From NCBI RefSeq assembly GCF_025905425.1, contig NZ_CP109603.1:3012001-3076000 (forward strand): a stretch of 64,000 nucleotides of DNA. Direction: 5' to 3'. The notes below the pieces were generated by a model. That model ran no database searches, was not told the origin of the DNA, and saw nothing but the letters and a program-made list of their open reading frames with translations. A program made the position numbers and the translations under genes. The stretch is from Pseudomonas putida (GTDB lineage Bacteria > Pseudomonadota > Gammaproteobacteria > Pseudomonadales > Pseudomonadaceae). Shown piece after piece: positions 27,871 to 57,297 of this stretch; within the stretch, counting starts at the first letter, position 1, and the number at the start of each line of letters is the position of its first letter.

Positions 27871-27915
27871 AATCTCGGCAGAGCGACCACCGCCCTGCAC
27901 CGCCTGGAGAAAAGC

Positions 27916-28575: not shown

Positions 28576-28586
28576 GGATTGCACCC

Positions 28587-30817: not shown

Positions 30818-30840
30818 AGCCGTCTCGATCGAGCGGGTAA

Positions 30841-30933
30841 CCCTGTGGGAGCGGGCTTGCCCGCGAAGCAGGCACCACGGTGAATGGCACGGGCTTCGCC
30901 CGTGTTCGCGGGGCAAGGCCGCTCCCACAGGGG
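30841..30933. repeat. Inverted pair of REP elements inside the hpa operon
   Basis: CCTGTGGGAGCGGGCTTGCC (30842 onward) and its reverse-complement partner ending CGCTCCCACAGG (to 30932) face each other around a short spacer with the secondary repeat ACGGGCTTCGCCCGT. The pair occupies the 190-base gap between hpaE and hpaD on the coding strand of the operon, so the transcript would carry a large stem-loop. Confidence 0.85.
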
Positions 30934-31007
30934 TTGCGCAGGCTTCGAAGTCTTGAGCAAGTCGTTTGCTCCTACACCATAACAACATCCTCTTACCGGA
31001 GATTTCC

Positions 31008-31931: not shown

Positions 31932-31990
31932 TCCCGCTGCCTGGCCGCTCTGCCGGGCGGCCAGGCGCTTCAGCTACGAGGATGCCCTTC

Positions 31991-32401: not shown

Positions 32402-32445
32402 GGCCGGCACCTTTCACCGCCTCATCCCACAATAAGTACAAGAAT

Positions 32446-33753: not shown

Positions 33754-33770
33754 ACCCTGAGACTCTGACC

Positions 33771-34574: not shown

Positions 34575-34584
34575 GGACTTGCCC

Positions 34585-35388: not shown

Positions 35389-35395
35389 ACATCCT

Positions 35396-35416
35396 TGGGG
35401 CTGCTCTGCAGCCCCA
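35396..35416. terminator. GC hairpin between convergent hpaI and hydroxylase reductase
   Basis: TGGGGCTGC and GCAGCCCCA form a 9-base stem with loop TCT in the 40-base convergent gap. It lacks T runs but could serve both directions. Confidence 0.5.
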
Positions 35417-35428
35417 GCTATCAATGGC

Positions 35429-36367: not shown

Positions 36368-36378
36368 GCAAGACTCCC

Positions 36379-36399
36379 GGGCAGGCCAAGGGCCTGCCC
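36379..36399. other. Hairpin between oxygenase and reductase genes
   Basis: GGGCAGGCC and GGCCTGCCC form a perfect 9-base stem with loop AAG just upstream of the reductase ribosome site on the minus strand. It may set the ratio of the two subunits by partial termination or mRNA processing; there is no T run after it in the direction of transcription. Confidence 0.45.
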
Positions 36400-36442
36400 T
36401 GTTTGTTGTTGTGTTTGTAAGGGGGAACGGCCAGCCGGCGGC

Positions 36443-37612: not shown

Positions 37613-37743
37613 GAACGGTCTCTTTATTATTGGAGAGTCGACTTCGGCTGCACCAAGCCCTGTCGTGCGGGCGTTGCGGTGCGATGGAGCAGCCGGAAAG
37701 TCTGTAAAGACACGTTCAGTATGTGAGGTAGGGCTAAACCTCG

Positions 37744-37778
37744 AAATGCACGTTACGGCGGGAAAATTGCACTTTCCA
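37744..37778 (-). promoter_or_regulatory. Candidate AraC-type (HpaA) tandem site of the hydroxylase promoter
   Basis: On the minus strand GTGCAATTT and GTGCATTTC are direct repeats with starts exactly 21 bases apart. The upstream end TGGAAAGTGCAA is shared exactly with 26729-26740. The site is about 130-165 bases above the C2 start codon, ahead of a possible CATACTGAA -10. Binding by HpaA is inference. Confidence 0.45.
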
Positions 37779-37792
37779 TGGCCGCTGGCGCG

Positions 37793-38215
37793 TCACGGTT
37801 TGATCTTTTTCATTTCGTTGAGCAGCTGCATCAGTTGCTGCAGTTTGTCTTCGCCGAACTGGCTGAGGATCCTTTCATAGTTGCGGGCCATTTCCTCGCT
37901 CATTGCCAGAAACGCCTGCTGCCCTTTGTCCGTCAGGCTGATGAACACCCGTCGCTGGTCTTCCGGCGACTTTCGCCGTGCAACCACCCCATCACGTTCG
38001 AGCCGCTTGAGCACACCGCTCATGCTGGGTTTGAGAATGCAGGCAAGCTCGGCGAGCTGATGGCTTTCCAGCTCGCCCTGCTGGCGCAAAATACGAATGA
38101 CCCGCCATTGCTGTTCGGTCAGGTCATGGGCATTCAAGGCCGGTCGAAAGAACGCCATCGTGGCTTCGCGAGCCTGCAGCAGGGTAAGGGTCAAAGAGGG
38201 TCTTGGTGTGGTCAT
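37793..38215 (-). CDS. hpaR: MarR family regulator, HpaR paralogue 2
   Basis: This is a 140-residue HpaR-type repressor: SLTLTLLQAREATMAFFRPALNAHDLTEQQWRVIRILRQQGELES, recognition region LAELACILKPSMSGVLKRLERDGVV and wing DQRRVFISLTDKG. About 98 of 140 residues agree with the copy at 26240, with most changes in the C-terminal effector/dimer part, so the two may read different ligands. It precedes the hydroxylase genes on the same strand. An ATTAATACATTAAC element lies 56 bases above its ATG, like the operators at hpaG, suggesting autoregulation. Confidence 0.87.
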   Translation of the reverse strand: MTTPRPSLTLTLLQAREATMAFFRPALNAHDLTEQQWRVIRILRQQGELESHQLAELACILKPSMSGVLKRLERDGVVARRKSPEDQRRVFISLTDKGQQAFLAMSEEMARNYERILSQFGEDKLQQLMQLLNEMKKIKP

Positions 38216-38270
38216 GCGTGCCCGGGCATCATGGAAAGTGGCGAGCAGGCCAGTATGCCAGCACGGGCTC

Positions 38271-38284
38271 ATTAATACATTAAC
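38271..38284. promoter_or_regulatory. HpaR-like operator ahead of hpaR copy 2
   Basis: ATTAATACATTAAC agrees with the two elements in the hpaG promoter (GTTAACATATTAAC, ATTAACACGTTAAC) in the core TTAAYAYRTTAAC form. It lies in the divergent region between hpaR copy 2 and the FAD oxidoreductase gene. Confidence 0.55.
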
Positions 38285-38326
38285 CAATCAGCCGATGACA
38301 GGCTCGGTCAACCGCTGCCAGCGGCA

Positions 38327-43624: not shown

Positions 43625-43708
43625 ATGCAAGATCAACACCGTGCCCGCTCACTATGCTCGACGCTTTGGCGGCCTGCCAGGCCGCGCCCTTCTGCCTTCG
43701 GAGTCAGC

Positions 43709-45196
43709 ATGAGCGACATTACCCTTCTTCCCGCCGTCACGGCATTCATGGCCCGACAACATGGCGTGTTCATTCACGGCCAGCACATCGCCAGCCAGTC
43801 GTCCTCGACCTTCGGCGTAGTCAACCCGGCCAATGGCGAAACCATCGCCCACATCGCCGACGCCAACCAGGCCGACGTGGACCATGCCGTGCGCTCAGCC
43901 CGCCAGGGCTTCACGACGTGGTCACGCACCAGCCCTGCCGCACGCGCCGCCGTGCTGTTCAAGCTGGCGGACCTGCTGGAAGCCAACCGCGAGGAACTGG
44001 CCCAGCTCGAAACCTTGCAGTCGGGCAAGCTGATCGGCATCGCGCGGGCGTTCGAAGTCGAGCAGGCCGCGCACTTTTTGCGCTACTACGCAGGCTGGGC
44101 CACCAAGATCACCGGCCAGACCATCACCCCATCCCTGCCCTCGTTTGCCGGCGAGCGCTACAGCGCCTTCACCCTGCGCGAACCGATTGGCGTGGTCGTG
44201 GGCATCGTGCCGTGGAACTTCGCCACCATGATCGCCATCTGGAAGCTGGCCTCGGCCCTCACCACCGGCTGCAGCATCATTCTCAAACCCAGCGAGTTCA
44301 CCCCGCTGACGTTGCTGCGCATTGCCGAGCTGGCCAGCGAGGCCGGCCTACCGCCGGGCGCACTCAACGTGTTGACCGGTGGCGGCCTGGTGGGCAAGGC
44401 GCTGATCGAGCACCCCGGCACCGACAAGGTTTCGTTCACAGGTTCCGTGCCTACCGGCATCGCCGTCGGCCAGGCCGCCATGGGCGCGAAGCTGACCCGG
44501 GCAACGCTGGAGCTGGGCGGCAAGAACTCGGTAGCGTTCCTGCCGGATGTGGCGCTCGACAAGGCCGTCGACGGCATCATCGAAGCGGGCTTCCTGCACT
44601 CGGGGCAGATTTGCGCCGCAGGTGAGCGCTTCTTCGTCCACCGCTCGCGCATCGACCCGCTGCTCGACGCGCTGTCCCAGCGCCTGGGCCAACTGAAAAT
44701 CGGTTCGCCGCTGGATGAGTCGACCCAGTTCGGCCCCGTGGCCAACAAGCCACACCAGCAAAAACTGGCCGAACTGTTCGCCACCGCGCGCAGCGAAGGC
44801 AGCCAGATCATCCATGGTGGGCACATTGGCGATGGCCCAGGCTGCTTTGTCGAGCCGACGGTGATACTCGCCAAGTCGGCAAGCGACACCCTGCTCAATC
44901 AGGAAACCTTTGGCCCGGTGGCCACCTTCCTGCCTTACGATGACGAAGACGAACTGCTGCACCTGATGAACGCTACGCCCTACGGCCTCAGTGCCAGCCT
45001 GTGGACCAACGACCTGGGCAAGGCCATGCGGCTTGTCCCAGAAATCCAGGCCGGCACCCTGTGGGTCAACATGCACACCTTGCTCGACCCGGCCGTGCCT
45101 TTCGGCGGTATCAAGGCGTCCGGCATCGGCCGCGAGTTCGGCTCGGCGTTCATTGATGATTTCACCGAGCTCAAGTCGGTGATGATCCGCTACTAA
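43709..45196 (+). CDS. feaB: Phenylacetaldehyde-type dehydrogenase, FeaB-like
   Basis: This 495-residue NAD-dependent aldehyde dehydrogenase starts at ATG 43709 with CGGAG ahead. It resembles FeaB along its length: RQHGVFIHGQHIASQSSSTFGVVNPANGE, GVVVGIVPWNFATMIAIWKLASALTTGCSIILKPSEFTPLT, TLELGGKNSVAFLPD with the general base Glu, GFLHSGQICAAGERFFV with the nucleophile Cys, and LWVNMHTLLDPAVPFGGIKASGIGREFG. It would oxidise (hydroxy)phenylacetaldehyde from amine oxidation, or from the TPP decarboxylase route, to 4-HPA or 3,4-dihydroxyphenylacetate for the hpa enzymes. Confidence 0.9.
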   Translation: MSDITLLPAVTAFMARQHGVFIHGQHIASQSSSTFGVVNPANGETIAHIADANQADVDHAVRSARQGFTTWSRTSPAARAAVLFKLADLLEANREELAQLETLQSGKLIGIARAFEVEQAAHFLRYYAGWATKITGQTITPSLPSFAGERYSAFTLREPIGVVVGIVPWNFATMIAIWKLASALTTGCSIILKPSEFTPLTLLRIAELASEAGLPPGALNVLTGGGLVGKALIEHPGTDKVSFTGSVPTGIAVGQAAMGAKLTRATLELGGKNSVAFLPDVALDKAVDGIIEAGFLHSGQICAAGERFFVHRSRIDPLLDALSQRLGQLKIGSPLDESTQFGPVANKPHQQKLAELFATARSEGSQIIHGGHIGDGPGCFVEPTVILAKSASDTLLNQETFGPVATFLPYDDEDELLHLMNATPYGLSASLWTNDLGKAMRLVPEIQAGTLWVNMHTLLDPAVPFGGIKASGIGREFGSAFIDDFTELKSVMIRY

Positions 45197-45219
45197 AAGC
45201 AGCCCACTGAGTAGACCTG

Positions 45220-45243
45220 GCCAAGGCGTGCAAGCGCCTTGGC
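45220..45243. terminator. Hairpin after feaB
   Basis: GCCAAGGCG and CGCCTTGGC form a 9-base stem with loop TGCAAG, 23 bases after the feaB stop. No T run follows. It separates feaB from the porin gene. Confidence 0.5.
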
Positions 45244-45385
45244 AGCCACGAACAAGACCCCACCCAGCCATCCACGCGCTAATAGGCCGTCGCAGCCAAC
45301 CGCGATGGCACCTCGCCCCCACGAGGATGCCCCCGAACAACAAAGGCTGCCTTGCAAGGTGCCGAGAACAATCGAGGGAAGTGCT

Positions 45386-46696
45386 ATGTTCAAACCGCAA
45401 CGGCTGTCCGCCCTGGCCCTGGCCACTCTTCTGGCCAGCCAGGCAGCGCCGGCCTACGAGCTTTACGCCGACGACGACAGCCACTTGAATGCCGACATGC
45501 TCGCGGTGTGGGGCATGTTCAACAGCCGCAAGAACTATGACGGCACCACCGGTGGCTCGACCTGGCGTGAGGGCTTCATCAAGTACGGCCTGAGCGGCGA
45601 TCAGGGCCTGGCGGGCAATGGCACCCTCTATGGCGCATTGAACTGGGTGAGCTCCGCCACCTGGGGCGATGGCGATGCCGCTGGCAATACCGATGGCTCC
45701 GAACGCACCACCAAGATCGAGGACGCCTACCTGGGCTGGCGTTCAGGCGATCTGTTGCCCTGGTTGGGCAAGGACGGTGTGGATATTTCCGCAGGGCGGC
45801 AGGTGATCCGTCTGGGCAGCGGCTTCCTGATCAACGACGACGGCCCCAACCTGGGCAACGGCGTGGCGGACGGCACCCTGGACCGCGGCGGCGCCTACTA
45901 CCTGGCTGCGCGCCATGCGTTCGACCGCACGGCGATCCTGCGCCTGGGCGGGCAAGATGGGCTGCATGGCAGCCTGTTGTGGCTCAAGTCCGATAACCGT
46001 GCCCAAGCCGAGACCGAACTGGCCGCAGGCACCCTGGACTACACCCATGCCCTGGGCACCTTGGGGCTGACCTGGGTGCATGGCATCGACGTCACCGACC
46101 AATGGGCCAGCGCGTTCCAAAAAGCGCGGGAAGGCATGGACGTCTATAGCCTGCGGGGCGAAGGCAGCGCCGGTATCGACAATGCCAGTTTCGCCTTCGA
46201 ATACGCCTGGCAAGACAAGCAAGGCGGCCCGGAAAAAGCCTGGTACCTGCAGGCTGGCTACACCTTCGCCGACCTGCCATGGGCGCCTCAGGTGACCTAT
46301 CGCTACACCCGCTACTCGGCCGGCTGGGACTCGCTATTCAGTGGCCTGTCCAGTGGCTACGGCACTTGGTTCCAGGGTGAAGTCGCCGCCAACTACGCAG
46401 GCCCATTCAACAGCAATACCGGCATCCACCATGTTGGCGTGAAGGCTACTGCGCTGGAAAACCTAACGGTCGGCGTGCTGTATTTCGACTTCGATACCGT
46501 GCGTACTCGCGACAGCCTCAACCTAGACGCCCGGGAACTTGATGTCTACCTAGAATGGGCGGTCAACGACCACCTGATCATCAGCCCGCTGGTGGGCCTG
46601 TATCAGCCTCGCAAGGATGAGCGCAGCGGCGGCAACCAGGTGGGTGGTAACGGCACCAACGTCTACAGCCAGTTGACTGTCGCGGTACCGTTCTAA
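45386..46696 (+). CDS. Outer-membrane channel protein (porin-like)
   Basis: The ATG at 45386 has CGAGGGAAG upstream and starts a signal peptide (MFKPQRLSALALATLLASQAAPA). The 413-residue mature part is rich in alternating aromatic strands (TLYGALNWVSSATWGDG, WYLQAGYTFADLPWAPQVTYRYTRYSAGWD) and ends in Phe (QLTVAVPF), as outer-membrane barrels do. No OprD or OmpW motif is obvious; it may belong with alginate-export-like or aromatic-compound porins. From its position it probably admits the amine or aromatic acid. Confidence 0.82.
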   Translation: MFKPQRLSALALATLLASQAAPAYELYADDDSHLNADMLAVWGMFNSRKNYDGTTGGSTWREGFIKYGLSGDQGLAGNGTLYGALNWVSSATWGDGDAAGNTDGSERTTKIEDAYLGWRSGDLLPWLGKDGVDISAGRQVIRLGSGFLINDDGPNLGNGVADGTLDRGGAYYLAARHAFDRTAILRLGGQDGLHGSLLWLKSDNRAQAETELAAGTLDYTHALGTLGLTWVHGIDVTDQWASAFQKAREGMDVYSLRGEGSAGIDNASFAFEYAWQDKQGGPEKAWYLQAGYTFADLPWAPQVTYRYTRYSAGWDSLFSGLSSGYGTWFQGEVAANYAGPFNSNTGIHHVGVKATALENLTVGVLYFDFDTVRTRDSLNLDARELDVYLEWAVNDHLIISPLVGLYQPRKDERSGGNQVGGNGTNVYSQLTVAVPF

Positions 46697-46707
46697 ACCA
46701 CCTGCGA

Positions 46708-46772
46708 ATGGGGCTACGGGGTGCATGGCACCGGCTTCGCCGGTGTTCGCGGGGCAAGCCCGCTCCCACAGG
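46708..46772. repeat. REP element downstream of the porin gene
   Basis: GGCACCGGCTTCGCCGGTG is followed by TTCGCGGGGCAAGCCCGCTC and CCACAGG, the reverse orientation of the standard REP, 12-75 bases after the porin stop. Confidence 0.85.
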
Positions 46773-46838
46773 TATTGCGTCAATTTTTAGAACTTGAACA
46801 AGACAGTGCTCCCACATTTTGAGATCGCTCATCCCACC

Positions 46839-46868
46839 CTGGCACAACGGGTCAAATCGCCTGGCACG
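46839..46868 (+). promoter_or_regulatory. Repeated CTGGCAC motif upstream of tynB-like gene
   Basis: CTGGCACAA (46839) and CTGGCACGC (46861) are direct repeats 22 bases apart, about 105-130 bases before the ATG at 46971. The second copy agrees with CTGGCACGC ahead of feaB. Spacing is one base more than in the other two sites, so the match is weaker. Confidence 0.35.
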
Positions 46869-46970
46869 CTGACGCAAGACGGCCTGCCGGTCGTTAGCGA
46901 AACTGACTGCACGAATCACACCCCAGCCATAACAACAACACCTGACAACGGCCGCCCTGCGAGACTCGCC

Positions 46971-48110
46971 ATGACCCTCGATACCCGAATTGACTTCATC
47001 TACCTGTCTGAACAGGACATGATCCGCGCCGGCGTCACCGACATGCCCGCCTGTGTCGACACCATGGAAGAAATGTTCGACCTGCTCTACCAGGGCGATT
47101 ACCGCATGGCCGGCCCGAACAACGACTCCCACGGCGCGATGATCACCTTCCCCGAGCAATCGCCGTTCCCGCACATGCCCAAGCCGACCGCAGACCGTCG
47201 CATGATGGCCATGCCCGCCTACCTGGGCGGCAACTTCCGTACCGCAGGCGCCAAATGGTACGGCTCGAACATCGCCAACCGGGAAAAGGGCCTGCCGCGC
47301 TCGATCCTGATGTTCACCCTCAACGACGCCGACACCGGCGCGCCCCTGGCGCACATGTCGGCCAACCTGCTGTCGGCGTACCGCACCGGCGCCATCCCCG
47401 GTGTCGGCGCGCGCCACCTGGCCCGTAAGGACGCCAAGGTCATCGGCCTGGCCGGGCCCGGTGTGATGGGCAAGACCACGGTGGCCGCGTTCATGGCCGT
47501 GTGCCCGCAGGTGGACACGATCAAGATCAAGGGCCGTGGCCAGAAGAACCTTGATGAATTCGTTGCCTGGGTCAAGGCGAGCTTCCCGCAGATCACCACC
47601 CTCCGCGTCGTGCAGACCCTGGAAGAGGTAGTGCGTGACGCCGACCTGGTCAGCTATTGCAGCTCGGGCGAAGTCGGCGACCCCTCCACCTATCCGCTGG
47701 TGCGGCGCGAGTGGGTCAAGCCCGGCGCGTTTCTGGCAATGCCCGCCCCCTGCAGCATCGATGAAGGCATGGAGCGTTCGGATGTGCGCAAAGTGGTGGA
47801 CAACACCGGGCTGTACGAAGCGTGGTTCGAGGAACTGCCCAAGCCTGCGCACAACCATGTGCCGCTGGTAGGCGTGCGCTTCATGGACATGATCGCCGAA
47901 GGCAAGCTCGACGCCGCGCACGTCGAAGACATCGGCAAGATCATCAGCGGTGATGCACCCGGGCGCCTGAACGACGACGAAATCATCCTCATGTCAGTCG
48001 GCGGCATGCCCGTCGAAGACGTCGCCTGGGGCACCGTCGTGTACCGCAACGCGGTCGAGAAAGGCATCGGTGTGAAGCTCAACCTCTGGGAAAAACCCGT
48101 CCTCAGCTGA
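46971..48110 (+). CDS. tynB: Ornithine cyclodeaminase/mu-crystallin family protein, tyramine oxidase subunit B-like
   Basis: This 379-residue protein has the OCD/mu-crystallin fold with an NAD(P) Rossmann motif (KVIGLAGPGVMGKTTVAAFMAV, about 152-173), PAYLGGNFRTAGAKWYGSN and LMFTLNDADTGAPLAHMSANLLSAYRTGA for the substrate lysine/arginine region. It matches the protein annotated in Pseudomonas as tyramine oxidase subunit B, part of the tyn cluster of P. putida U. Its real chemistry is uncertain; the family reduces ketimines or deaminates amino acids. RidA and FAD oxidase genes follow closely, so imine handling is plausible. Confidence 0.82.
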   Translation: MTLDTRIDFIYLSEQDMIRAGVTDMPACVDTMEEMFDLLYQGDYRMAGPNNDSHGAMITFPEQSPFPHMPKPTADRRMMAMPAYLGGNFRTAGAKWYGSNIANREKGLPRSILMFTLNDADTGAPLAHMSANLLSAYRTGAIPGVGARHLARKDAKVIGLAGPGVMGKTTVAAFMAVCPQVDTIKIKGRGQKNLDEFVAWVKASFPQITTLRVVQTLEEVVRDADLVSYCSSGEVGDPSTYPLVRREWVKPGAFLAMPAPCSIDEGMERSDVRKVVDNTGLYEAWFEELPKPAHNHVPLVGVRFMDMIAEGKLDAAHVEDIGKIISGDAPGRLNDDEIILMSVGGMPVEDVAWGTVVYRNAVEKGIGVKLNLWEKPVLS

Positions 48111-48138
48111 TCCCCCTCAACTCAAAAAGGTTACCCCC

Positions 48139-48561
48139 ATGACTCAAATCACCAAACTGAAAACCGGCTCCAAATTCGAAGACATGGCCAGCTACTCCCG
48201 CCTGGTGGCGGTGGACAACTGGATCTACGTGTCCAACACCGCCGGGCGCAACCCGCAAACCCAAGTCATCCCCGAAGACGTGATCGAACAGACCCACCAG
48301 GTGTTCGCCAACATCGAAAGCGCACTGGCGGCAGTCGATTCAGGGCTGGGCGATGTCATCAGCTCGCGCGTGTTCATCCAGGACCCGGCCGATGTGCCCA
48401 AGGTGATGGAGGTGATCGGCGAGAAATTCAGAGGCATTGACCCGTCCACCACCGTCACCTGCCCACCCTTGGGCTCGACCGTCTACAAGGTCGAGCTGGA
48501 AGTGACGGCGTACCGGGGTGCCTCGCGCGCGCAGGTCACGCTGATCCGGCTGGGCGAGTGA
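48139..48561 (+). CDS. RidA family protein lacking the catalytic arginine
   Basis: The 140-residue Rid-fold protein starts 28 bases after the tynB-like gene with an AAAAAGG site. YVSNTAGRNPQTQ, NIESALAAVDSGLGDVISSRVFIQDPADVPKVMEVIGEKF and KVELEVTAYRG show the fold. In true RidA the imine/enamine-hydrolysing Arg105 stands 9-10 residues before the final IEIEAIA strand; the aligned segment here is CPPLGSTVYKVELEV, with Leu or Pro and no Arg. It is therefore one of the Rid4-7-type subgroups that lack deaminase activity in vitro. These are often next to FAD amine oxidases. Confidence 0.88.
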   Translation: MTQITKLKTGSKFEDMASYSRLVAVDNWIYVSNTAGRNPQTQVIPEDVIEQTHQVFANIESALAAVDSGLGDVISSRVFIQDPADVPKVMEVIGEKFRGIDPSTTVTCPPLGSTVYKVELEVTAYRGASRAQVTLIRLGE

Positions 48562-48614
48562 TACACCAGCCTTGAACCCGCAACGTTCCGTTCACACTGC
48601 CGCCGAGTGAAGCC

Positions 48615-49910
48615 ATGTCCCCCGTCATTGATCCTGTGCACACCCCGACCACCCACCCTCAGGCCACGAGCGTGGTGATCATCGGGGGAGGCATCATCGG
48701 CCTTACCGCAGCCCTGACCCTGGCCGAGCGCAACATCCCCGTGGTGGTGCTGGAGAAAGGCCGCCTTGCGGGCGAGCAGTCTTCGCGCAACCTTGGCTGG
48801 GTGCGCAAGACCAACCGCCATGCGCACGACATTCCGTTGGCCCTGGCGGCCGATCAATTGTGGGCGAAGATGGCAGAACGGGTGGGCTGCGATGTGGGCT
48901 ACCGGCAAGCAGGTATCATGTTCGTCGGCCGTAACGACACGCAGATGGGCATGCACGAGAGCTGGCTCAAGAGCATCGAGCACCTGGGGCTGGACTCTCG
49001 CCTGCTCAGCAACAAGGAGATTGCCAACAAGGTGCCAGGTGGCCGCGCCGACTGGGCCGGCGGTATTTACACCGCCTCGGACGCCCGCGCGGAACCGACC
49101 CTGGCGGCCAGTGCCATCGCCCGTGCAGCAATCGCCAAAGGCGCGGTAATCGTGGAGAACTGCGCCGTGCGCACACTGGTCACCGCCGCCGGCAGGGTCA
49201 GCGGCGTCGTCACCGAGCAAGGCGAAATCCGCTGCGAGCAGGTGTTGCTGGCCGGTGGTTTGTGGTCTCGCAAGTTTCTCGGCAACCTCAACATCGACCT
49301 GCCCACCCTGCCGCTGACCTGTTCTGTGCTGCGTACCCACCCACTGGAAGGCCCGACCGACATTGCCGTGGGCGCACCGGACTTTTCCTTCCGCAAGCAC
49401 AAGGATGGCGGCTACATCATTACCCAGCGCGGGGCGCTCGATGCGTTCCTGACCCTGGACCACCTGTTGCTGGGCAGGCGCTACCTGCCGCAACTCAAAG
49501 CACAGCGTGACTTCTTGCGCATCAGCTTCGGCAAGTACTTTTTCAAGGACCTGGCCCTGGCCCGGCGCTGGGGCGCCTCGCAGGTCACGCCCTTCGAGCG
49601 CGTCAGGGTTCAGGACCCGCAGGCCAACACGGCACTCAACGACGAAGCCCTGCGCAACCTCAAGGCCGCATGGCCCGTGTTCGAGCAGGCACGGATCGCC
49701 TCTGCCTGGGCGGGCACGATCGACGTCACCCCGGACTCCAACCCGGTAATCGGCCCGGTGCAAGCCATTCCCGGCCTGACGCTGGCGACCGGGTTTTCCG
49801 GCCATGGCTTTGGCACCTCGCCGGCGGCGGGCCAACTGGCGGCCGACCTGGTTTCGCAGGCGCCACCGCTGATCGATCCAAGCCCCTACCGGTTCGAACG
49901 CTTCGCTTAA
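48615..49910 (+). CDS. FAD-dependent oxidoreductase (DAO family), probable amine oxidase
   Basis: The 431-residue flavoprotein has TSVVIIGGGIIGLTAALTLAERNIPVVVLEKGRLAGEQSSRNLGWVRKTNR at its N-terminus (FAD fold plus the DAO segment) and TIDVTPDSNPVIGPVQAIPGLTLATGFSGHGFGTSPAAGQLAADLV near the C-terminus. Together with the OCD and RidA-like proteins it forms a three-gene unit that resembles the tyramine oxidase (tynA/tynB) arrangement; it is the best candidate for the oxidase itself. Substrate not shown by sequence. Confidence 0.85.
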   Translation: MSPVIDPVHTPTTHPQATSVVIIGGGIIGLTAALTLAERNIPVVVLEKGRLAGEQSSRNLGWVRKTNRHAHDIPLALAADQLWAKMAERVGCDVGYRQAGIMFVGRNDTQMGMHESWLKSIEHLGLDSRLLSNKEIANKVPGGRADWAGGIYTASDARAEPTLAASAIARAAIAKGAVIVENCAVRTLVTAAGRVSGVVTEQGEIRCEQVLLAGGLWSRKFLGNLNIDLPTLPLTCSVLRTHPLEGPTDIAVGAPDFSFRKHKDGGYIITQRGALDAFLTLDHLLLGRRYLPQLKAQRDFLRISFGKYFFKDLALARRWGASQVTPFERVRVQDPQANTALNDEALRNLKAAWPVFEQARIASAWAGTIDVTPDSNPVIGPVQAIPGLTLATGFSGHGFGTSPAAGQLAADLVSQAPPLIDPSPYRFERFA

Positions 49911-49931
49911 GCCCGGCGTTGGAGCGATTCA

Positions 49932-49952
49932 ACTATCCACCTTGTGCATAGT
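49932..49952. promoter_or_regulatory. LysR-type operator, copy 1 (B3/4-lysR operon)
   Basis: ACTATCCA-N5-TGCATAGT lies inside the longer inverted repeat GATTCAACTAT/ATAGTTGAATC (49926-49958), about 95 bases before the GTG start at 50044. The same pattern with the same spacer length occurs at 51716-51736. Its partial dyad (CTAT...ATAG) is typical of LysR regulators. Confidence 0.65.
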
Positions 49953-50043
49953 TGAATCCCGGCTTGCGCTACCGGCAGCGCGCTGCCCCGGTGCTATATT
50001 CGGGGCCTCTGCACAGCGGTCCATGTCCCGAACAGGAGCAAGC

Positions 50044-50763
50044 GTGAGTTCTTTCACCTACACGATAAACCCAGACATTTTTGCCGATCACCCGCAGTAC
50101 CGGCGCGGCGTGATCGTCTTCAAGGCATTGGACAACAGCCGCCCCGACGCGGCGCTGACTGCACTGCTCAGGCAAGCCGAGGTCGAGCTTCGCCAGCGGA
50201 TCGAGAGCAACCCGGCCGACTATCCGCCAATCGCAGCGTGGCGGGACGCCTACCGGCTGTTCGGCGCCAAACCTTCGGAGCATCGCAGTTCGATCGAAGC
50301 GCTCAGCCGCCGCGTGCTCAAGCCAGATAGCCTGCCGGACATCAACCCACTGGTCGATATCGGCAACCTGGTGTCCCTGCGCCATGTGCTGCCAGCCGGT
50401 GTGCACCCTGTCGGCCCCGAGTCCAAACACCTGACCTTGCGCAAGACGGTTGCCGAAGACCGCTTTCTCGCAGGCCCAGGCGACGCACTGGAAACCCCTT
50501 CCCCAGGTGAAGTCGTACTGGCTGCCGGCAATCGGGTACTGACCCGGCGCTGGACCTGGCGCCAAGCGGGCGACACCCGCACCCTCGCCGACACAGACTG
50601 CGTCTTTTTCGACATCGATGGCCTGCCTCCAATCAGCCGAGAAAACGTACTGGCTGCGATATTCGACATCGTCTCGCTGGTCGAGCGTTACTGCGGCGGC
50701 CTCTGCGTTGGGCATGCCGTGCTGGATGCCGACCACCCCACGTTCACTGTCAGCCTCGACTGA
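50044..50763 (+). CDS. Stand-alone B3/4-domain protein (PheT editing-domain fold)
   Basis: The GTG at 50044 is chosen for the CAGGAG site five to eight bases upstream; product 239 residues. It contains the B3/B4 fold seen in PheT: YPPIAAWRDAYRLFGAKPSEHRSSIEALSRRVLKP, LPDINPLVDIGNLVSLRHVLPAGVHPVGP and GEVVLAAGNRVLTRRWTWRQAGDTR through DTDCVFFDIDGLPPISRENVLAAIFDIVSLVERYCGG. In PheRS this domain hydrolyses Tyr-tRNA-Phe. It is cotranscribed with a lysR gene and faces an aromatic amino acid uptake and transamination operon. A role in editing or in ligand sensing is inference. Confidence 0.87.
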   Translation: MSSFTYTINPDIFADHPQYRRGVIVFKALDNSRPDAALTALLRQAEVELRQRIESNPADYPPIAAWRDAYRLFGAKPSEHRSSIEALSRRVLKPDSLPDINPLVDIGNLVSLRHVLPAGVHPVGPESKHLTLRKTVAEDRFLAGPGDALETPSPGEVVLAAGNRVLTRRWTWRQAGDTRTLADTDCVFFDIDGLPPISRENVLAAIFDIVSLVERYCGGLCVGHAVLDADHPTFTVSLD

Positions 50764-50768
50764 GGGCA

Positions 50769-51701
50769 ATGATGAACAGTGCCTTCAGCCATTTGAGCAT
50801 TGCGCAACTGACGGCACTGTTGACGATTCTTGAACTGCGCAACCTGAGCCAGGCGGCCCTGCGCCTGGGCACCAGCCAGTCCGGTGTCAGCCGCCATCTG
50901 GCGCAGTTGCGCGAAGCCTTTGCCGACCCGCTGATGATCAGGCAACAGCGTGAGTATGTGCTGACCGAGCGCGGGGAAGCGTTGATCGAACCGATCAAGA
51001 CCATCCTGGAAAAACTCCAGGAAATGAGCACACCCACAGCATTCACCCCCCTCACCTGCGCCCGGCGTTTTCGCCTGGCAGGTTCGGACTATGTCGCACA
51101 GCACATCCTGCCGGGCTTGCTTGCACAGATGGCAGACCTCGCCCCAGGGGCCGATATCGATTTTCGGCTGTGGCAGCCCGACCGTTTCGAGTGGTTGGCA
51201 ACGGGTGAACTGGATGTCGTCACCAGCATGCTGGAAGGCACTCCTGCCGCCTATCACGGCAGGATCATCGGTGAAGACCGCGCCGTGTGCTGCATGCGTG
51301 ACGACCACCCACTGGCGTCCCTTTCAACGTTGGATATCACCGCCTACCTGGCGTGGCGCCACGTCAAGATCACCACCGGCGGCGACAAGGACGGCTTCCT
51401 CGAAGCCTACCTGCGAAGGCACAGCCTGCAGCGCGACCTGAAGCTCAGCGTCCCCTTCTACTCTGCAGCCCTGAGCGTGATTCGCGACAGCGACCTGTTG
51501 TTGATGCTGCCCGAGCACATCGCACGAAAATGGTCGGAACAAGGGGGTGTCTGCTATCGCCCCCTGGACTTCATGGCGCATCAATTCCGCTACTGGGTGG
51601 TGTGGCACAGCCGCACCCACAGCTCACCTGAACATGCCTGGTTCCGGCGCCTTGTTCATACCCATTGCCAGCAATCGCACTCCCTTAGCCCGGGCACTTG
51701 A
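50769..51701 (+). CDS. LysR family transcriptional regulator
   Basis: This 310-residue LTTR has an N-terminal winged helix (HLSIAQLTALLTILELRNLSQAALRLGTSQSGVSRHLAQLREAFADPLMIRQ) and a C-terminal periplasmic-binding-like domain (FRLAGSDYVAQHILPGLLAQMADLAPGADIDFRLWQPDRFEWL). It follows the B3/4 gene by five bases. Two identical-spacing motifs at 49932 and 51716 flank it and probably are its binding sites, for its own operon and for the permease operon. The inducer is likely an aromatic amino acid or keto acid. Confidence 0.93.
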   Translation: MMNSAFSHLSIAQLTALLTILELRNLSQAALRLGTSQSGVSRHLAQLREAFADPLMIRQQREYVLTERGEALIEPIKTILEKLQEMSTPTAFTPLTCARRFRLAGSDYVAQHILPGLLAQMADLAPGADIDFRLWQPDRFEWLATGELDVVTSMLEGTPAAYHGRIIGEDRAVCCMRDDHPLASLSTLDITAYLAWRHVKITTGGDKDGFLEAYLRRHSLQRDLKLSVPFYSAALSVIRDSDLLLMLPEHIARKWSEQGGVCYRPLDFMAHQFRYWVVWHSRTHSSPEHAWFRRLVHTHCQQSHSLSPGT

Positions 51702-51715
51702 ACACGTTGAAGCTG

Positions 51716-51736
51716 ACTATCCAGTATCTGCATAGT
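51716..51736. promoter_or_regulatory. LysR-type operator, copy 2 (permease operon)
   Basis: ACTATCCA-GTATC-TGCATAGT repeats the site at 49932 with the same 5-base spacer. It starts 15 bases after the lysR stop and 185 bases before the permease start. The rest of 51737-51920 is AT-richer and should contain the promoter, but I cannot fix the hexamers. Confidence 0.65.
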
Positions 51737-51920
51737 CCGCATTTAATAACTGAAACTTCGTTGGAAACTTTTGGTGTTAACGTAGTTGCCAGCCAGGTGA
51801 CACGTTAAACCCGTTGCGCCTCGCTTAACCCACTACCGAGCACGTCCCTTATTACTCTGCCAAATCATTCAGGTTCGCGGGCAGGCGCCCGTGCACCTGA
51901 AAACAATCGAGAATAAAACG

Positions 51921-53333
51921 ATGAGCAGAACCAACGTTTCACAACCCGCGTTCGAGCGAAACCTTTCAAACCGGCATATTCAAATGATCGGGCTGGGCGG
52001 GGCCATTGGCACTGGCCTGTTCCTGGGCAGTGCCGGTGTTATCAAGTCGGCGGGGCCAAGCCTGCTGATTGGCTACATGATTGCAGGGCTCATCGCTTTT
52101 CTGATCATGCGCCAACTGGGCGAGATGCTGGTGGATGAACCCGTCTCCGGATCGCTTAGCCATTTTGGCAATAAATACGGCGGTGGCTTCATGGGCTACC
52201 TCACCGGCTGGAACTATACCGTCACTTACTTTCTGGTGGGCATGGCCGAACTTACCGCACTCGGTAAATACATGCAGTTCTGGTGGCCCGAACTTCCAAC
52301 CTGGGCAACGGCCGGGTTCTTTCTGGTATTGATCAGCGGCATCAATACCCTCAACGTCAAGGTTTATGGTGAGTCGGAGTTCTGGTTCGCAATCATCAAA
52401 GTAGGCGCAGTCGTGATGATGATCGCGATGGGCAGCTGGTTCATTTTCGGCCCCAACACGCCGCCGCAGGCAGCGGTCAGCAACCTGTGGAGCCACGGTG
52501 GTTTCATGCCCCATGGCTGGCATGGGCTGATCATGGCGCTGCCGTTGATCATGTTCGCCTTCGGCGGCCTGGAGTTCATCGGTTTCACCGCGGGCGAAGC
52601 CAAGCACCCAAGCAAGACCATCCCCCGCGCCATCAACGCCGTGCTGTATCGCATCGGCTTGTTTTATGTCCTGGCGTTGGCCGTGCTGTTGGCACTGCCC
52701 CCGTGGGACAACCTGGTCGCTTCGCTGACTGCATCGGGTGACCCCTACAGCGCCAGCCCGTTCGTCAAGATTCTGAGCCTGCTGAACATTGATTACGCGG
52801 CCCACGTACTCAACTTCGTGGTGTTGACGGCTGCCCTGTCGGTTTACAACGCGGTGGTGTACTGCAACTCACGCCAACTGCATGCCATGGCGCACCAGGG
52901 CCATGCCCCCCGTGCGTTGATCAAGTTGAGCGAGCGGCGTATCCCGATCAATGCACTTCTGCTCACCGGCCTGGTGACGGCAAGTTCGGTTGTTATCAAC
53001 TACCTGTCGCCGGAAGGTGCACTGGAAACACTGATGTCGCTGGTGGTTGCCACCACGATGATGAACTGGGCGCTGACCAGCTTCATCCACTTGAAGTTCC
53101 GCAAGGCCAAGCGTGAAACAGGCCAGCTCACCGCCTACCGCTCCCCGCTGTACCCGTTCACCAATTACCTGTGCATGGCCTTTATTGTCGGGTTACTGCT
53201 GATCATTGCCTTTATCCCAGGCATGCGTATTTCGGTACTGCTGATGCCGTGCTGGTTATTGGTCATGTTCCTCAGTTACCGAAAGTTGAAAAGCAACCCG
53301 GCCGCTACTCACATTGTTTCCAGCCCTTCCTGA
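51921..53333 (+). CDS. Amino acid permease, AroP-like (AAT family)
   Basis: This 470-residue inner-membrane transporter has 12 helices and the AAT signature near the start: LSNRHIQMIGLGGAIGTGLFLGSAGVIKSAGPSLLIGYMIAGLIAFLIMRQLGEML. FGGLEFIGFTAGEAKHPSKTIPRAINAVLYRI is the second conserved block. Members include AroP, PheP, CycA and ProY; the aromatic aminotransferase in the same operon favours an aromatic amino acid. The ATG at 51921 gives the conserved N-terminus. Confidence 0.9.
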   Translation: MSRTNVSQPAFERNLSNRHIQMIGLGGAIGTGLFLGSAGVIKSAGPSLLIGYMIAGLIAFLIMRQLGEMLVDEPVSGSLSHFGNKYGGGFMGYLTGWNYTVTYFLVGMAELTALGKYMQFWWPELPTWATAGFFLVLISGINTLNVKVYGESEFWFAIIKVGAVVMMIAMGSWFIFGPNTPPQAAVSNLWSHGGFMPHGWHGLIMALPLIMFAFGGLEFIGFTAGEAKHPSKTIPRAINAVLYRIGLFYVLALAVLLALPPWDNLVASLTASGDPYSASPFVKILSLLNIDYAAHVLNFVVLTAALSVYNAVVYCNSRQLHAMAHQGHAPRALIKLSERRIPINALLLTGLVTASSVVINYLSPEGALETLMSLVVATTMMNWALTSFIHLKFRKAKRETGQLTAYRSPLYPFTNYLCMAFIVGLLLIIAFIPGMRISVLLMPCWLLVMFLSYRKLKSNPAATHIVSSPS

Positions 53334-53344
53334 TAGGTACCCCG

Positions 53345-54991
53345 ATGAAAACTGATCAAGCGAACGTGCAGACTCTTACCGGGGGCGATGCCATCGTCGA
53401 GAGCCTCAAAGCCCATGGCGTGGATACTGTGTTCGCGCTGCCGGGCGCGCAGATCTATGGCCTGACCGATGCCCTGGCCCGTAATAGTGACAGCCTGCGT
53501 ATCTACGGCGCGCGTCACGAGCAAACCAGTGCCTACATGGCATTCGGTTATGCCCGCTCCACCGGGCGCCCAGGGGTCTTCACCGTTGTGCCCGGCCCGG
53601 GCATCCTCAACGCCAGCGCGGCGATGCTGACCGCGCAGGGTTGCAACGCCCCGGTGCTGGCCCTGACCGGCGACGTCATGAGCCCCTTCAAGGACCGCGG
53701 GCGCGGCCAGTTGCATGAACTGCCACGACAGCTCGAAGTGCTGCAAAGCATTGGCAAGTGGGCGGCCCATATCGAGCAACCTGCCGAGACCTCTTGGCGC
53801 GTCGCCCAGGCCTTCCAGGCGATGCAATCGGGCCGGCCAGGCGTGGTGTCACTGCAAGCCTCGTGGGACTTTTTCACCCAGCGCGCTGCGGTGCAGATCC
53901 AGCAACCTCTCGCGCTGCAGCCAAAGCCTCCAGTCGACACCGATGCCGTGGACGTCGCAGCGAAGCTGCTGAGCCAAGCCTCGAACGCGATGATCTTCGT
54001 CGGTTCGGGCGCTTTGGACGCCAGTGCTGAAGTCAATCAACTGGCCGAGGTATTGGGTGCACCCGTCGTAAGCTTCCGAGGCGGGCGCGGTGTCGTCTCC
54101 GACGACCATCCCCTGGGCTTTACCGTCGCAGCAGGTGCACGGATCTGGGCACAGACCGATGTCGCCGTGGTCATCGGCTCACGCTTCGAGCTGCTGGATA
54201 TTCGCTGGCGCCACCGCCCTGCAGGGCTGAAGCTGATTCGTATCGATATCGACCCGGCTGAAGTGCGCCGCATTGCAGCGGACGTCAACCTGGTGGCCGA
54301 CGCAGCCGATGGCGCTGCGGCCCTGGCCCAGGCAGTGCTCAAGCACGGCGCTCCCAAACGGCGTGATGCGCAGCTGGCTGAAACCAAGGCCGCCGCCGAG
54401 CAGGCCATCCAGTGCGTGCAACCGCAACTGGACTACCTGCGCGTGATCCGTGATGTCTTGCCACGAGACGGCTTCTTCATCGAGGAAATTTCCCAGGTGG
54501 GCTTCACCTCGATCTTTGGCTTCCCAGTGTACAAACCGCGCACCCTGGTCACCTCGGGCCACCAAGGCACCCTGGGCTTCGGCTTCCCGACTGCACTGGG
54601 GGTAAAGGCAGCCCACCCGGACAAAGCCGTGGTCTCGATCTGCGGTGACGGCGGCTTCATGTTCGCTGCCCAGGAGTTGGCAACGGCAGTGCAGTACAAG
54701 CTCAACCTGGTCACCTTGGTGTTCAACAACAACGCATTCGGCAACGTCTATCGCGACCAGCAGGAAAGCTTCGGTGGGCGCCTGCTGGGCTCGGAGCTGG
54801 TCAACCCGGACTTCGTCAAATTCGCCGAAGCCTTCGGCGTCGAGGCACACCGTGTAGACAGCCCGGCACGCCTGCGCCCGGTGCTGGAACGTGCCTTCGC
54901 AGCCGACAAACCCGTGCTGATCGAAATCACGGTCCCGCGCGGCAGCGACTCAAGCCCGTGGCAGTTCCTGCACCCAAGCTTCTCTCACTAA
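53345..54991 (+). CDS. Thiamine-pyrophosphate enzyme, acetolactate synthase-like
   Basis: The 548-residue protein has the three TPP-enzyme domains: an N-terminal PYR domain with ARHEQTSAYMAFGYARSTGRPGV (cofactor-activating Glu near residue 54), a middle domain (about 190-330) and a PP domain with the TPP motif GDGGFMFAAQELATAVQYKLNLVTLVFNNNAFG. It is annotated by similarity as acetolactate synthase-like, but it lies between an aromatic permease and an aromatic aminotransferase with no ilvN partner. A 2-oxo acid decarboxylase acting on (hydroxy)phenylpyruvate is therefore likely; the His-His motif of classical pyruvate decarboxylases is not evident, so this is inference. Confidence 0.85.
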   Translation: MKTDQANVQTLTGGDAIVESLKAHGVDTVFALPGAQIYGLTDALARNSDSLRIYGARHEQTSAYMAFGYARSTGRPGVFTVVPGPGILNASAAMLTAQGCNAPVLALTGDVMSPFKDRGRGQLHELPRQLEVLQSIGKWAAHIEQPAETSWRVAQAFQAMQSGRPGVVSLQASWDFFTQRAAVQIQQPLALQPKPPVDTDAVDVAAKLLSQASNAMIFVGSGALDASAEVNQLAEVLGAPVVSFRGGRGVVSDDHPLGFTVAAGARIWAQTDVAVVIGSRFELLDIRWRHRPAGLKLIRIDIDPAEVRRIAADVNLVADAADGAAALAQAVLKHGAPKRRDAQLAETKAAAEQAIQCVQPQLDYLRVIRDVLPRDGFFIEEISQVGFTSIFGFPVYKPRTLVTSGHQGTLGFGFPTALGVKAAHPDKAVVSICGDGGFMFAAQELATAVQYKLNLVTLVFNNNAFGNVYRDQQESFGGRLLGSELVNPDFVKFAEAFGVEAHRVDSPARLRPVLERAFAADKPVLIEITVPRGSDSSPWQFLHPSFSH

Positions 54992-55008
54992 AATTGGAGG
55001 TAACCCAG

Positions 55009-56205
55009 ATGTTCGAGCAGGTCGAAGCCTACCCAGGCGACCCCATTCTGTCCCTGATGGACGACTTCCACGGCGACAACCGCGCCGAGAAGGTCAACCT
55101 GAGCATTGGCTTCTATTACGATGAAGCAGGACAGGTACCGGTGCTGGACACGGTCAAGGCAGCCAAGGCGAAACTCGATGGCGTCGCCCCCGCAGCCAAC
55201 CTGTACCTGCCCATGGATGGCCACCCAGCTTTTCGCAACGCGGTTCAAGCCTATTTGTTCGGCGAGATCGCCCCGCAAACAAGCGATCGCATCGTCACCC
55301 TGCAATCGGTAGGTGGCTCCGGGGCCTTGCGCGTGGGGACCGATTTCCTCAAGCGTTACTACCCCGAGGCGGGCGTGTGGGTCAGCGACCCAACCTGGGA
55401 CAACCACCTCGCAATCTTCAGCGGCGCCGGCTTCCCGGTTAACCGCTACCCGTACCTGGACGAGACGGGTAGCCACGTCGCGTTCGAGCGCATGCTGGCC
55501 TGTTTCGAGCAACTGCCCGCGCACGCCATCGTGCTGCTGCATGCCTGTTGCCATAACCCGACCGGCATCGACCTGACCCCGCAGCAGTGGGACGCGGTAT
55601 TCGACCTGTGCCGCCAACGCAGCCTGATTCCGTTCCTGGATGCGGCCTATCTGGGCATGGGCGACGGTGTCGACCAGGACGCCTACGCCATCCGCGCGCT
55701 GGCCAAGGCTGGCATTACCGGGCTGGTGGCGAACTCGTTCTCCAAGGTGTTCTCCTTGTACGGCGAGCGCGTGGGTTCGTTGTCGGTGGTCTGTGAAAAT
55801 GAAGCGATTGCCGCGCGGGTTGCCGGCCAGCTCAAGGGGACGGTGCGGACCAACTACTCCAACCCGCCAAGGCACGGGGCCGAACTGGTTGCCACCATCC
55901 TGACCGACGATGACCTGCGCCAGGCATGGCGCGCCGAGCTTGAGGCGATGCGCCTGCGCATGGTCGACATGCGCCATGCACTGCATGCCAAGTTCAAGGG
56001 CATCGACGCTTCACTGAATGTGAACTACCTGCTCGATCAGAAAGGCATGTTCAGTTACACAGGCCTTAGCGCGGATGCCGTGGACAGCATCCGCGAGCAG
56101 CATGCGGTGTACCTGATTCGAAGCGGCCGTATCTGCATCGCGGGCCTCAACGAGGCCAACCTGGACGCTGTCGCCAACGCTCTGGCAAGCCACTCGGCAG
56201 GTTGA
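55009..56205 (+). CDS. Aromatic amino acid aminotransferase, TyrB family
   Basis: This 398-residue class I PLP enzyme has the family blocks: VNLSIGFYYDEAGQVPVL, LYLPMDGHPAFRNAVQAYLFG, HACCHNPTGIDLTPQQW, and the PLP lysine in ANSFSKVFSLYGERVGSLSVV near residue 247, with the substrate Arg in LIRSGRICIAGLN near residue 375. The usual PxWxNH segment appears as DPTWDNHLAIF. It exchanges the amino group of Tyr or Phe with 2-oxoglutarate. GGAGG precedes the ATG at 55009, 17 bases after the TPP gene. Confidence 0.93.
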   Translation: MFEQVEAYPGDPILSLMDDFHGDNRAEKVNLSIGFYYDEAGQVPVLDTVKAAKAKLDGVAPAANLYLPMDGHPAFRNAVQAYLFGEIAPQTSDRIVTLQSVGGSGALRVGTDFLKRYYPEAGVWVSDPTWDNHLAIFSGAGFPVNRYPYLDETGSHVAFERMLACFEQLPAHAIVLLHACCHNPTGIDLTPQQWDAVFDLCRQRSLIPFLDAAYLGMGDGVDQDAYAIRALAKAGITGLVANSFSKVFSLYGERVGSLSVVCENEAIAARVAGQLKGTVRTNYSNPPRHGAELVATILTDDDLRQAWRAELEAMRLRMVDMRHALHAKFKGIDASLNVNYLLDQKGMFSYTGLSADAVDSIREQHAVYLIRSGRICIAGLNEANLDAVANALASHSAG

Positions 56206-56213
56206 TTTACGCT

Positions 56214-56231
56214 GGCGCCCGCAAGGGCGCC
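56214..56231 (+). terminator. GC hairpin ending the permease operon
   Basis: GGCGCCC and GGGCGCC pair with loop GCAA, nine bases after the aminotransferase stop, followed by TT only. A reasonable but weak terminator. Confidence 0.5.
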
Positions 56232-56320
56232 TTCAGCGGCGCGGCGCATCAGCGAAAATGCGCGTAGCTCTCACACTCTTTCGCCTCACAGGCAGTTGCG
56301 AATTTGCTTACAGTGAAATA

Positions 56321-56336
56321 CTGTATGCACATACAG
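56321..56336 (+). promoter_or_regulatory. LexA (SOS) box over the DUF1654-endA promoter
   Basis: CTGTATGCACATACAG fits the CTG-N10-CAG LexA consensus with the symmetric TATGCACATA core. It overlaps the -10 of a TTGCGA-N17-TACTGT promoter and lies 14 bases before the DUF1654 ATG. DNA damage should induce the two genes that follow. Confidence 0.8.
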
Positions 56337-56349
56337 CAAAAACAAGGAA

Positions 56350-56598
56350 ATGCCTGTGGCCAGCACCTCCTCAGCAACGCCGAGTAGCTATGAGCAACTG
56401 GGTGTTCGTATCCAGAAGATCATCAACAGCCCCACCGCCCAGCGCAGCCGTGCCGCGCTCATCTTCCGCCTGGAGCAGGAGTCCCCGGATGATTGGGAAA
56501 CCCTGCTCGAAGAAATCGCCGAAAACGACAACGTCACCCTTGCCCATCGCGACGATGGTGGCGTGCAGATTTTCTGGACCGTACCCAAGGAAGACTGA
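56350..56598 (+). CDS. DUF1654 family protein, LexA-controlled
   Basis: This 82-residue protein has the DUF1654 pattern: SSYEQLGVRIQKIINSPTAQRSRAALIFRLEQESPDDWETLLEEIAENDNVTLAHRDDGGVQIFW. The family is small, pseudomonad-centred and unassigned. AAGGA lies just ahead of the ATG. The gene stands directly behind an SOS box and six bases before the endonuclease gene, so the two form an operon. It has no signal peptide, while its partner is exported. Confidence 0.88.
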   Translation: MPVASTSSATPSSYEQLGVRIQKIINSPTAQRSRAALIFRLEQESPDDWETLLEEIAENDNVTLAHRDDGGVQIFWTVPKED

Positions 56599-56604
56599 CC
56601 ACGC

Positions 56605-57297
56605 ATGAGAGTTTCGTTTTTCGCTGCCGCCTGCCTGCTAGTGTCCATCCCGTTCGCCCATGCCGATGCTCCACGCACCTTCCAGGAGGCCAAGAAGGTC
56701 GCCTGGAAGTTGTACGCGCCACAGTCGACGGAGTTCTATTGCGGCTGCAAGTACAAAGGCAACAAGGTCGACCTGGCCTCTTGCGGCTATACACCGCGCA
56801 AGAATGCCCAACGGGCTTCGCGCATCGAATGGGAGCACATCGTGCCAGCCTGGCAGATCGGCCACCAACGCCAGTGCTGGCAGGACGGCGGGCGCAAACA
56901 GTGCTCGCAACACGATGAGGTGTACAAGCGCGCCGAGGCTGACCTGCACAACCTGGTGCCCAGCATCGGCGAGGTCAACGGCGACCGCAGCAACTTCAGT
57001 TTCGGTTGGCTGCCCGAGCAGCGGGGCCAATATGGCAGTTGCCTGACCCAGGTCGACTTCAAGGCCAAGAAGGTCATGCCACGCCCATCTATCCGGGGCA
57101 TGATCGCACGCACGTACTTCTACATGAGCAAGCAGTACAACCTGCGCTTGTCGAAGCAGGACCGCCAGCTGTTCGAGGCCTGGAACAAGACGTATCCGCC
57201 GCAGGTTTGGGAACTGCAGCGCAACCAGCAGGTGGCCTGCGTGATGGGGCGCGGTAACGCGTTTGTCGGGCCGGTCAACCTCAAGGCCTGCGGCTGA
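56605..57297 (+). CDS. endA: Endonuclease I (exported DNase)
   Basis: This 230-residue protein has a signal peptide (MRVSFFAAACLLVSIPFAHA) and the EndA/Vvn-type beta-beta-alpha-metal nuclease core: RASRIEWEHIVPAWQIG with the catalytic His near residue 80 and DLHNLVPSIGEVNGDRSNFSFG with the metal-binding Asn/Glu near residue 115-137. Eight cysteines suggest a disulphide-stabilised periplasmic or secreted enzyme that degrades free DNA. It is transcribed with DUF1654 under the LexA box. Its stop is only three bases from that of the convergent HD gene. Confidence 0.95.
   Translation: MRVSFFAAACLLVSIPFAHADAPRTFQEAKKVAWKLYAPQSTEFYCGCKYKGNKVDLASCGYTPRKNAQRASRIEWEHIVPAWQIGHQRQCWQDGGRKQCSQHDEVYKRAEADLHNLVPSIGEVNGDRSNFSFGWLPEQRGQYGSCLTQVDFKAKKVMPRPSIRGMIARTYFYMSKQYNLRLSKQDRQLFEAWNKTYPPQVWELQRNQQVACVMGRGNAFVGPVNLKACG

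Follow-up and report, generated by a model that had tools for sequence, protein, structure and literature searches.

The window, by which we mean the whole 64-kb stretch of DNA from the soil bacterium Pseudomonas putida that was analysed, encodes on its plus strand a 239-aa protein (50044-50763, GTG start), a putative trans-editing deacylase built on a free-standing B3/4 domain. B3_4 (PF03483) is the sole Pfam domain in this ORF, matched over the full profile (1-174) at 63.1 bits against a curated cut-off of 29.3; the ORF with its full-length domain is confirmed as real, bearing out an earlier note that had seen a stand-alone PheT-type B3/4 domain here. No NCBIfam model matched the protein at E 0.001. 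One other B3/4 domain was found in the genome, within PheT, which is encoded on the minus strand of the same window (9287-11668, 793 aa). The 239-aa protein carries none of the further PheRS beta domains and is not a PheRS beta subunit, the chain of which runs to about 790 aa. Proteins of its family are commonly labelled ‘B3/4 domain-containing’ or ‘phenylalanine--tRNA ligase beta subunit-related’.

Four genes follow on the plus strand. A LysR-family regulator (50769-51701; PF00126 and PF03466) starts 5 bp past the B3/4 gene, and after it comes an AroP/PheP-like amino acid permease (51921-53333; PF00324), which scores 581.6 bits against the NCBIfam AroP model and 537.6 bits against PheP, both below the equivalog cut-offs. 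The next gene encodes a TPP-dependent enzyme of the PRK08266 subfamily (53351-54991; NF006122, 791.7 bits, above the cut-off of 571), a putative aryl-2-oxoacid decarboxylase, and the last an aromatic amino acid aminotransferase of the TyrB/AspC type (55006-56205; NF006719, 532.3 bits, above the cut-off of 377). The permease, TPP enzyme and transaminase each belong to a broad family.

A conserved cassette with matching palindromes

A profile scan gave 66 loci of relatives, in which neighbours were identified by tblastn with the window's proteins. The order B3/4, LysR, permease, TPP enzyme, aminotransferase is kept in six of the seven cassette loci (L030, L032, L033, L034, L036 and L038), and in the seventh, L031, the contig breaks off after LysR, with the permease, TPP enzyme and aminotransferase genes on another contig (L154). 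Six of the seven are labelled Pseudomonas and one, L033, is a Paucimonas MAG. Among 199 Pseudomonas genomes, the TPP enzyme (E 1e-150) and a close B3/4 protein occur in the same three (hypergeometric 8e-7), a co-occurrence that is expected for a cassette because of linkage and shared descent. The flanks, compared by eye, vary between lineages and are partly common to near relatives (downstream in L033/L034 and L033/L038, upstream in L032/L038), so that we describe the cassette as possibly mobile and go no further.

T-N11-A is the form of LysR boxes. Exact CTAT-N11-ATAG occurs at two sites in the 64-kb window, where 0.08 would be expected and where one of 100 shuffles contained two. Both sites match ACTAT-N11-ATAGT exactly, and they lie upstream of the B3/4-LysR pair (49932-49952) and upstream of the permease (51716-51736). 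The permease-side palindrome could be aligned in the window plus six cassette loci. With up to two mismatches, it is present in L030-L034, L036 and L038, and the B3/4-side palindrome in L030, L032, L033, L034, L035 and L036 (not in L031, L037 or L038), giving both in L030, L032, L033, L034 and L036 and neither in L037; in some loci, chance produces many palindromes with two mismatches (nine in L036; five in L037, none of them at B3/4). With no more than one mismatch allowed, two matches turn up in the 853,844 bases of the 57 remaining loci. The two transcription units, B3/4-LysR and permease-TPP enzyme-aminotransferase, thus probably form one regulon through the matching palindromes, and the B3/4 gene is apparently switched on along with genes for aromatic uptake and breakdown. 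A LysR partner and an aromatic permease and aminotransferase context had been pointed out before, and both hold up as parts of a conserved cassette.

LysR adjoins B3/4 in all nine of the loci L030-L038 and in none of the 57 other loci scanned, some of which are short. Two of the nine, both from Vreelandella (L035 and L037), keep the B3/4-LysR pair without the catabolic genes. The tight pairing (5 bp in the window), its persistence in Vreelandella and the matching palindromes would also suit a non-enzyme, that is, an accessory protein or sensor that binds an aromatic ligand and tunes the LysR protein next to it; a ligand sensor was the alternative that the earlier note had suggested. The case for such a sensor lies mainly in the pairing with LysR, and we consider it improbable: the protein has an RRW-x-WRQ core in common with the kin of the deacylase CtdA, this LysR is matched nowhere among the 57 loci outside L030-L038 (some short), and LysR has a ligand domain of its own. 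In both Vreelandella loci a gene for a LysE-type exporter follows the B3/4-LysR pair (L035, 11707-12372, by Pfam; L037, 11746-12372, by eye), possibly serving export of an analogue instead of its uptake and catabolism.

A clade apart from CtdA

Free-standing B3/4 proteins had been described in the earlier note as having no settled function, a statement that is outdated. CtdA of Pseudomonas canavaninivorans is a demonstrated free-standing canavanyl-tRNA(Arg) deacylase, and a clostridial homologue at 35% identity was still able to keep canavanyl-tRNA from accumulating (PMC10018355). The best PDB matches of the 239-aa protein, by sequence and by predicted fold, are CtdA (9f7e, 9mkl), at about 27-30% identity; its structure alignments with bacterial PheT give 14-18%. 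Together with the activity of so distant a homologue as the clostridial one, these matches could be read as pointing to a divergent CtdA that removes canavanyl-tRNA(Arg), a reading that we think very unlikely for the reasons that follow.

A search of the 199 Pseudomonas genomes for B3/4 (E 0.001) gave matches in 24 genomes. Close matches (72-100%) occur in three (G000, G009 and G130), and the remaining matches, among those listed, are 27-40% identical. With a score of 447 bits against 9f7e, L008 shows that the 27-40% group, of which it is a member, includes CtdA or its close kin. G130 carries both paralogues (L005 and L028), of which L028 groups with the CtdA kin in the tree. In that tree of 83 rows, for which the bootstrap had not settled, some branches are long and 9f7e is absent (L008 stands among the rows), the query clade of 62 rows (support 100/98) is set apart from the 13 rows of CtdA kin (90/88).

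The two groups differ at fixed residues. Position 121 is His in 62/62 query-clade rows as against Glu in 13/13 rows of CtdA kin; Gly107 and Thr171 (each in 61/62 rows) correspond to Tyr and Asn in the CtdA kin; and Thr167 and Asp192 correspond to Cys and Glu, again fixed or nearly so across the 62 and 13 rows. Position 190 is Ile or Val in the 13 rows of CtdA kin and Asn in 45/45 query-clade rows outside the gamma group, and in the gamma group it is Asp in 16 of 17 rows. All cassette rows are among the 16; the odd one out is Vreelandella L037, a locus without the cassette. The setting differs too, with aromatic rather than canavanine neighbours and a LysR partner: canavanine degradation genes are absent among the annotated neighbours of 50044-50763, and an Rfam scan of 45000-57000 for a guanidine riboswitch gave nothing at gathering score. 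On these comparisons we take it that the protein is not CtdA, and canavanine was rejected as the main reading on the separate clade, the residue differences (at 107, 121, 171 and 190), the presence of both paralogues in G130, the aromatic neighbours and the lack of a riboswitch match in 45000-57000.

Two further observations concern free-standing B3/4 genes elsewhere. One Pseudomonas genome, G165, has three free-standing B3/4-type matches (L010, L027 and L029; 35-39% to the query). On a plasmid of Bosea sp. 685, from an Astragalus root nodule source (L176), a free-standing B3/4 gene adjoins a PLP enzyme annotated as of transsulfuration type, an arrangement consistent with a canavanine cassette.

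The editing pocket can be compared with that of PheT through hhalign, the one method used for this mapping (E. coli numbering for PheT). In a single profile alignment of the clade profile against the PheT B3/4 domain, Gly119 aligns with E. coli His265 and Asp190 with Glu334, two residues that we take to belong to the editing site. On this alignment the 239-aa protein would differ from the PheT editing domain in having Gly at the His265 position, and an acidic residue at the presumed phenol-sensing position in the cassette group would suit an editor of hydroxyphenylalanines. Over the residues that we take to form the editing site, the PheT of this genome can be aligned with that of E. coli.

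The link to the homoprotocatechuate pathway

A homoprotocatechuate/4-hydroxyphenylacetate cluster (26838-38287) lies upstream of the B3/4 gene, at a distance of about 12 kb, with HpaA, G1, G2, E, D, F, H and I, the reductase and oxygenase of p-HPA 3-hydroxylase, and HpaR. All of these score above their NCBIfam cut-offs except HpaF, which was recognised by Pfam CHMI. We propose this cluster as the downstream pathway of the cassette. Known hpa clusters start from 4-hydroxyphenylacetate; unlike them, the hpa genes here are accompanied by a front end for amino acid uptake, transamination and decarboxylation and by an editing protein. As in those systems, hpa genes are at hand, both in the window and beside the cassette of Pseudomonas sp. 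Kh13, and form the proposed destination of the cassette's product.

HpaD, the homoprotocatechuate dioxygenase, was found in 13 of the 16 genomes with the clade's nearest B3/4 members (72-94% identity). It is present in all seven cassette genomes (88-94%; related genomes being counted as independent) and in six of seven Burkholderiales-type genomes (72-81%), the exception being Cupriavidus amp6 with a 28% match only, and a search of the two Vreelandella genomes with a B3/4-LysR pair returned no HpaD. HpaD at 84% identity or above occurs in 24 of the 199 Pseudomonas genomes, and all three cassette genomes are among these (p 0.0016, kinship ignored). A single TGA flagged inside many second HpaD copies was considered as a defect and set aside; in the two copies that were read, it is the ordinary gene end.

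The link is closest in Pseudomonas sp. Kh13, where one contig carries the cassette preceded by an ALDH gene, HpaG1, G2, E, D, F, H, I, and regulators of the MarR and AraC types. Of the hpa products, HpaG2, E, D, H and I are above their cut-offs, HpaG1 and HpaF were recognised by eye (no model match at the limits used), the ALDH is StyD-like but below cut-off, and the MarR protein falls just under the HpaR cut-off. Searches of the Kh13 draft genome for the window's p-HPA oxygenase (E 1e-60) and for HpaB_N (E 0.001) gave no match. As read, this gene set would take dihydroxyphenylalanine to ring cleavage without a hydroxylation, and a cassette with hpa genes but without a known 4-hydroxyphenylacetate hydroxylase fits a substrate that enters already dihydroxylated, namely L-DOPA. 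A 4-HPA oxygenase is present in six of the seven cassette genomes, three of which have HpaB_N too, and tyrosine is therefore a possible nutrient.

These data bear on the target that the earlier note had put first, Tyr-tRNA(Phe). The protein could be a second PheRS editing copy that clears Tyr- or m-Tyr-tRNA(Phe) while imported tyrosine is burned via 4-hydroxyphenylacetate, and we hold this to be unlikely, though the strongest of the rivals considered. An editor of Tyr-tRNA(Phe) would be redundant, since the genome's PheT keeps what we take to be its editing residues; Gly stands at the His265 position in the one profile alignment; and Kh13 combines the cassette with the ring-cleavage set, with no known 4-HPA hydroxylase found. 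Given the genomic link between cassette and homoprotocatechuate pathway, a better guess is a hydroxylated phenylalanine, for instance L-DOPA. The interpretation given before thus stands as regards domain, LysR partner and aromatic context, and gives way on the functional precedent and on Tyr-tRNA(Phe) as substrate.

The TPP enzyme, a candidate aryl-2-oxoacid decarboxylase, belongs to a subfamily that goes by ‘hypothetical protein’, and members of it stand beside homoprotocatechuate-type genes elsewhere. A 58%-identical relative in L147 (genome G481, same phylum, another class) adjoins HpaH, HpaE and HpaD, all above cut-off by profile; L148 (G479) likewise has a TPP relative among hpa genes, by eye, as does L151.

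Genes upstream of B3/4 (43706-49910: OCD, RidA, DAO oxidoreductase, porin and ALDH, on the same strand as the cassette) were considered as part of the cassette and dropped, because L030 is the one locus of the 66 where tblastn places them beside B3/4. One of them, a phenylacetaldehyde-dehydrogenase-like ALDH (43706-45196, plus strand; NF045735 StyD, 560 bits, below the cut-off of 850), could provide the next pathway step from outside the conserved cassette; a close copy (95%) is near the cassette only in L030, and some other loci hold an ALDH at 29-34%. Separately, 46893-49910 has a row of genes for a protein of the OCD family (724 bits to the ‘tyramine oxidase subunit B’ subfamily) and for RidA-like and DAO-type proteins, possibly a tyramine or amine oxidation set that feeds the same hpa cluster.

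Proposed function

The reading that we favour, with somewhat better than even confidence, is that free-standing B3/4 proteins with a trans-editing role include a new, aromatic branch, to which this protein belongs. Its substrate would be a hydroxyphenylalanyl-tRNA, and from the gene context we infer that DOPA-tRNA is the most likely one. In outline, the AroP-like permease would import a hydroxylated phenylalanine, most likely L-3,4-dihydroxyphenylalanine, with meta-tyrosine or tyrosine next in line. The imported analogue would be degraded by transamination, TPP-dependent decarboxylation and aldehyde oxidation, and would so enter the homoprotocatechuate pathway. Meanwhile TyrRS, and PheRS to a lesser extent, would charge the analogue onto tRNA, and the B3/4 protein would hydrolyse the mischarged tRNA and keep the analogue out of protein. 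The LysR protein would control both transcription units by way of the matching palindromes.

The choice of tRNA draws on what has been published for PheRS. E. coli PheRS activates m-Tyr well and its editing guards against m-Tyr; L-DOPA was not charged by editing-dead E. coli PheRS, and the corresponding strain was inhibited by m-Tyr and not by L-DOPA; and T. thermophilus PheRS used L-DOPA 1500-fold more poorly than Phe (PMC4066437). With PheRS so poor a user of L-DOPA, DOPA-tRNA(Phe) by itself makes a weak case. We know of no editing site in TyrRS, and hence of no cis editing for DOPA-tRNA(Tyr), so a cell that imports DOPA as food would face a DOPA-tRNA(Tyr) problem. More specifically, then, and as a tentative proposal that we hold with less than even confidence, the protein may be a dedicated DOPA-tRNA deacylase, acting probably on DOPA-tRNA(Tyr), whose gene would sit in a cassette for L-DOPA utilisation that is under LysR control and possibly mobile, and it may belong to a wide B3/4 clade with further substrates yet to be discovered.

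Editing of tRNA mischarging has been studied mostly for the twenty protein amino acids. CtdA provides the known precedent, for canavanine, of a bacterium that feeds on a toxic analogue and has a proofreader of its own against it, and the cassette suggests that to eat the analogue and carry its editor may be a general arrangement, with a testable case for aromatic analogues. The proposal would also supply a function hypothesis for the ‘B3/4 domain-containing’ family and for the uncharacterised TPP subfamily PRK08266. In the literature matches listed, taken by their titles and abstract beginnings and with subscription journals mostly outside the scope, there was neither an L-DOPA/homoprotocatechuate cassette nor an aromatic free-standing B3/4 editor.

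The wider clade

In the 83-row tree the query clade reaches Chloroflexota, Actinomycetota, Desulfomonilaceae and others. An association with hpa for the whole clade was considered and rejected as unsupported outside the gamma group: HpaD (E 1e-60) was matched in 0/18 distant clade genomes (18 of the loci L045-L095), a search run without a known positive alongside. The hpa link is accordingly claimed for the gamma group. Within Burkholderiales there is a weak hint of it; in the family of a Ramlibacter MAG, three of four clade members have HpaD as against 53/200 (p about 0.06). In Cupriavidus amp6, B3/4 adjoins an aromatic aminotransferase and a TrpX-like ABC binding protein. The neighbours of the distant members were partly read by eye, with profiles run on ten plus ten proteins that are not all from the distant clade; in several loci they include IOR-alpha-like (below cut-off), class-V aminotransferase, SerC or beta-eliminating-lyase genes, with no uniform context. 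In five Chloroflexota loci (L083, L085, L089, L091 and L092) the B3/4 gene directly follows one for a large oxidoreductase of IOR-alpha-like type; profiles were run on two of these oxidoreductases, and both scored below cut-off.
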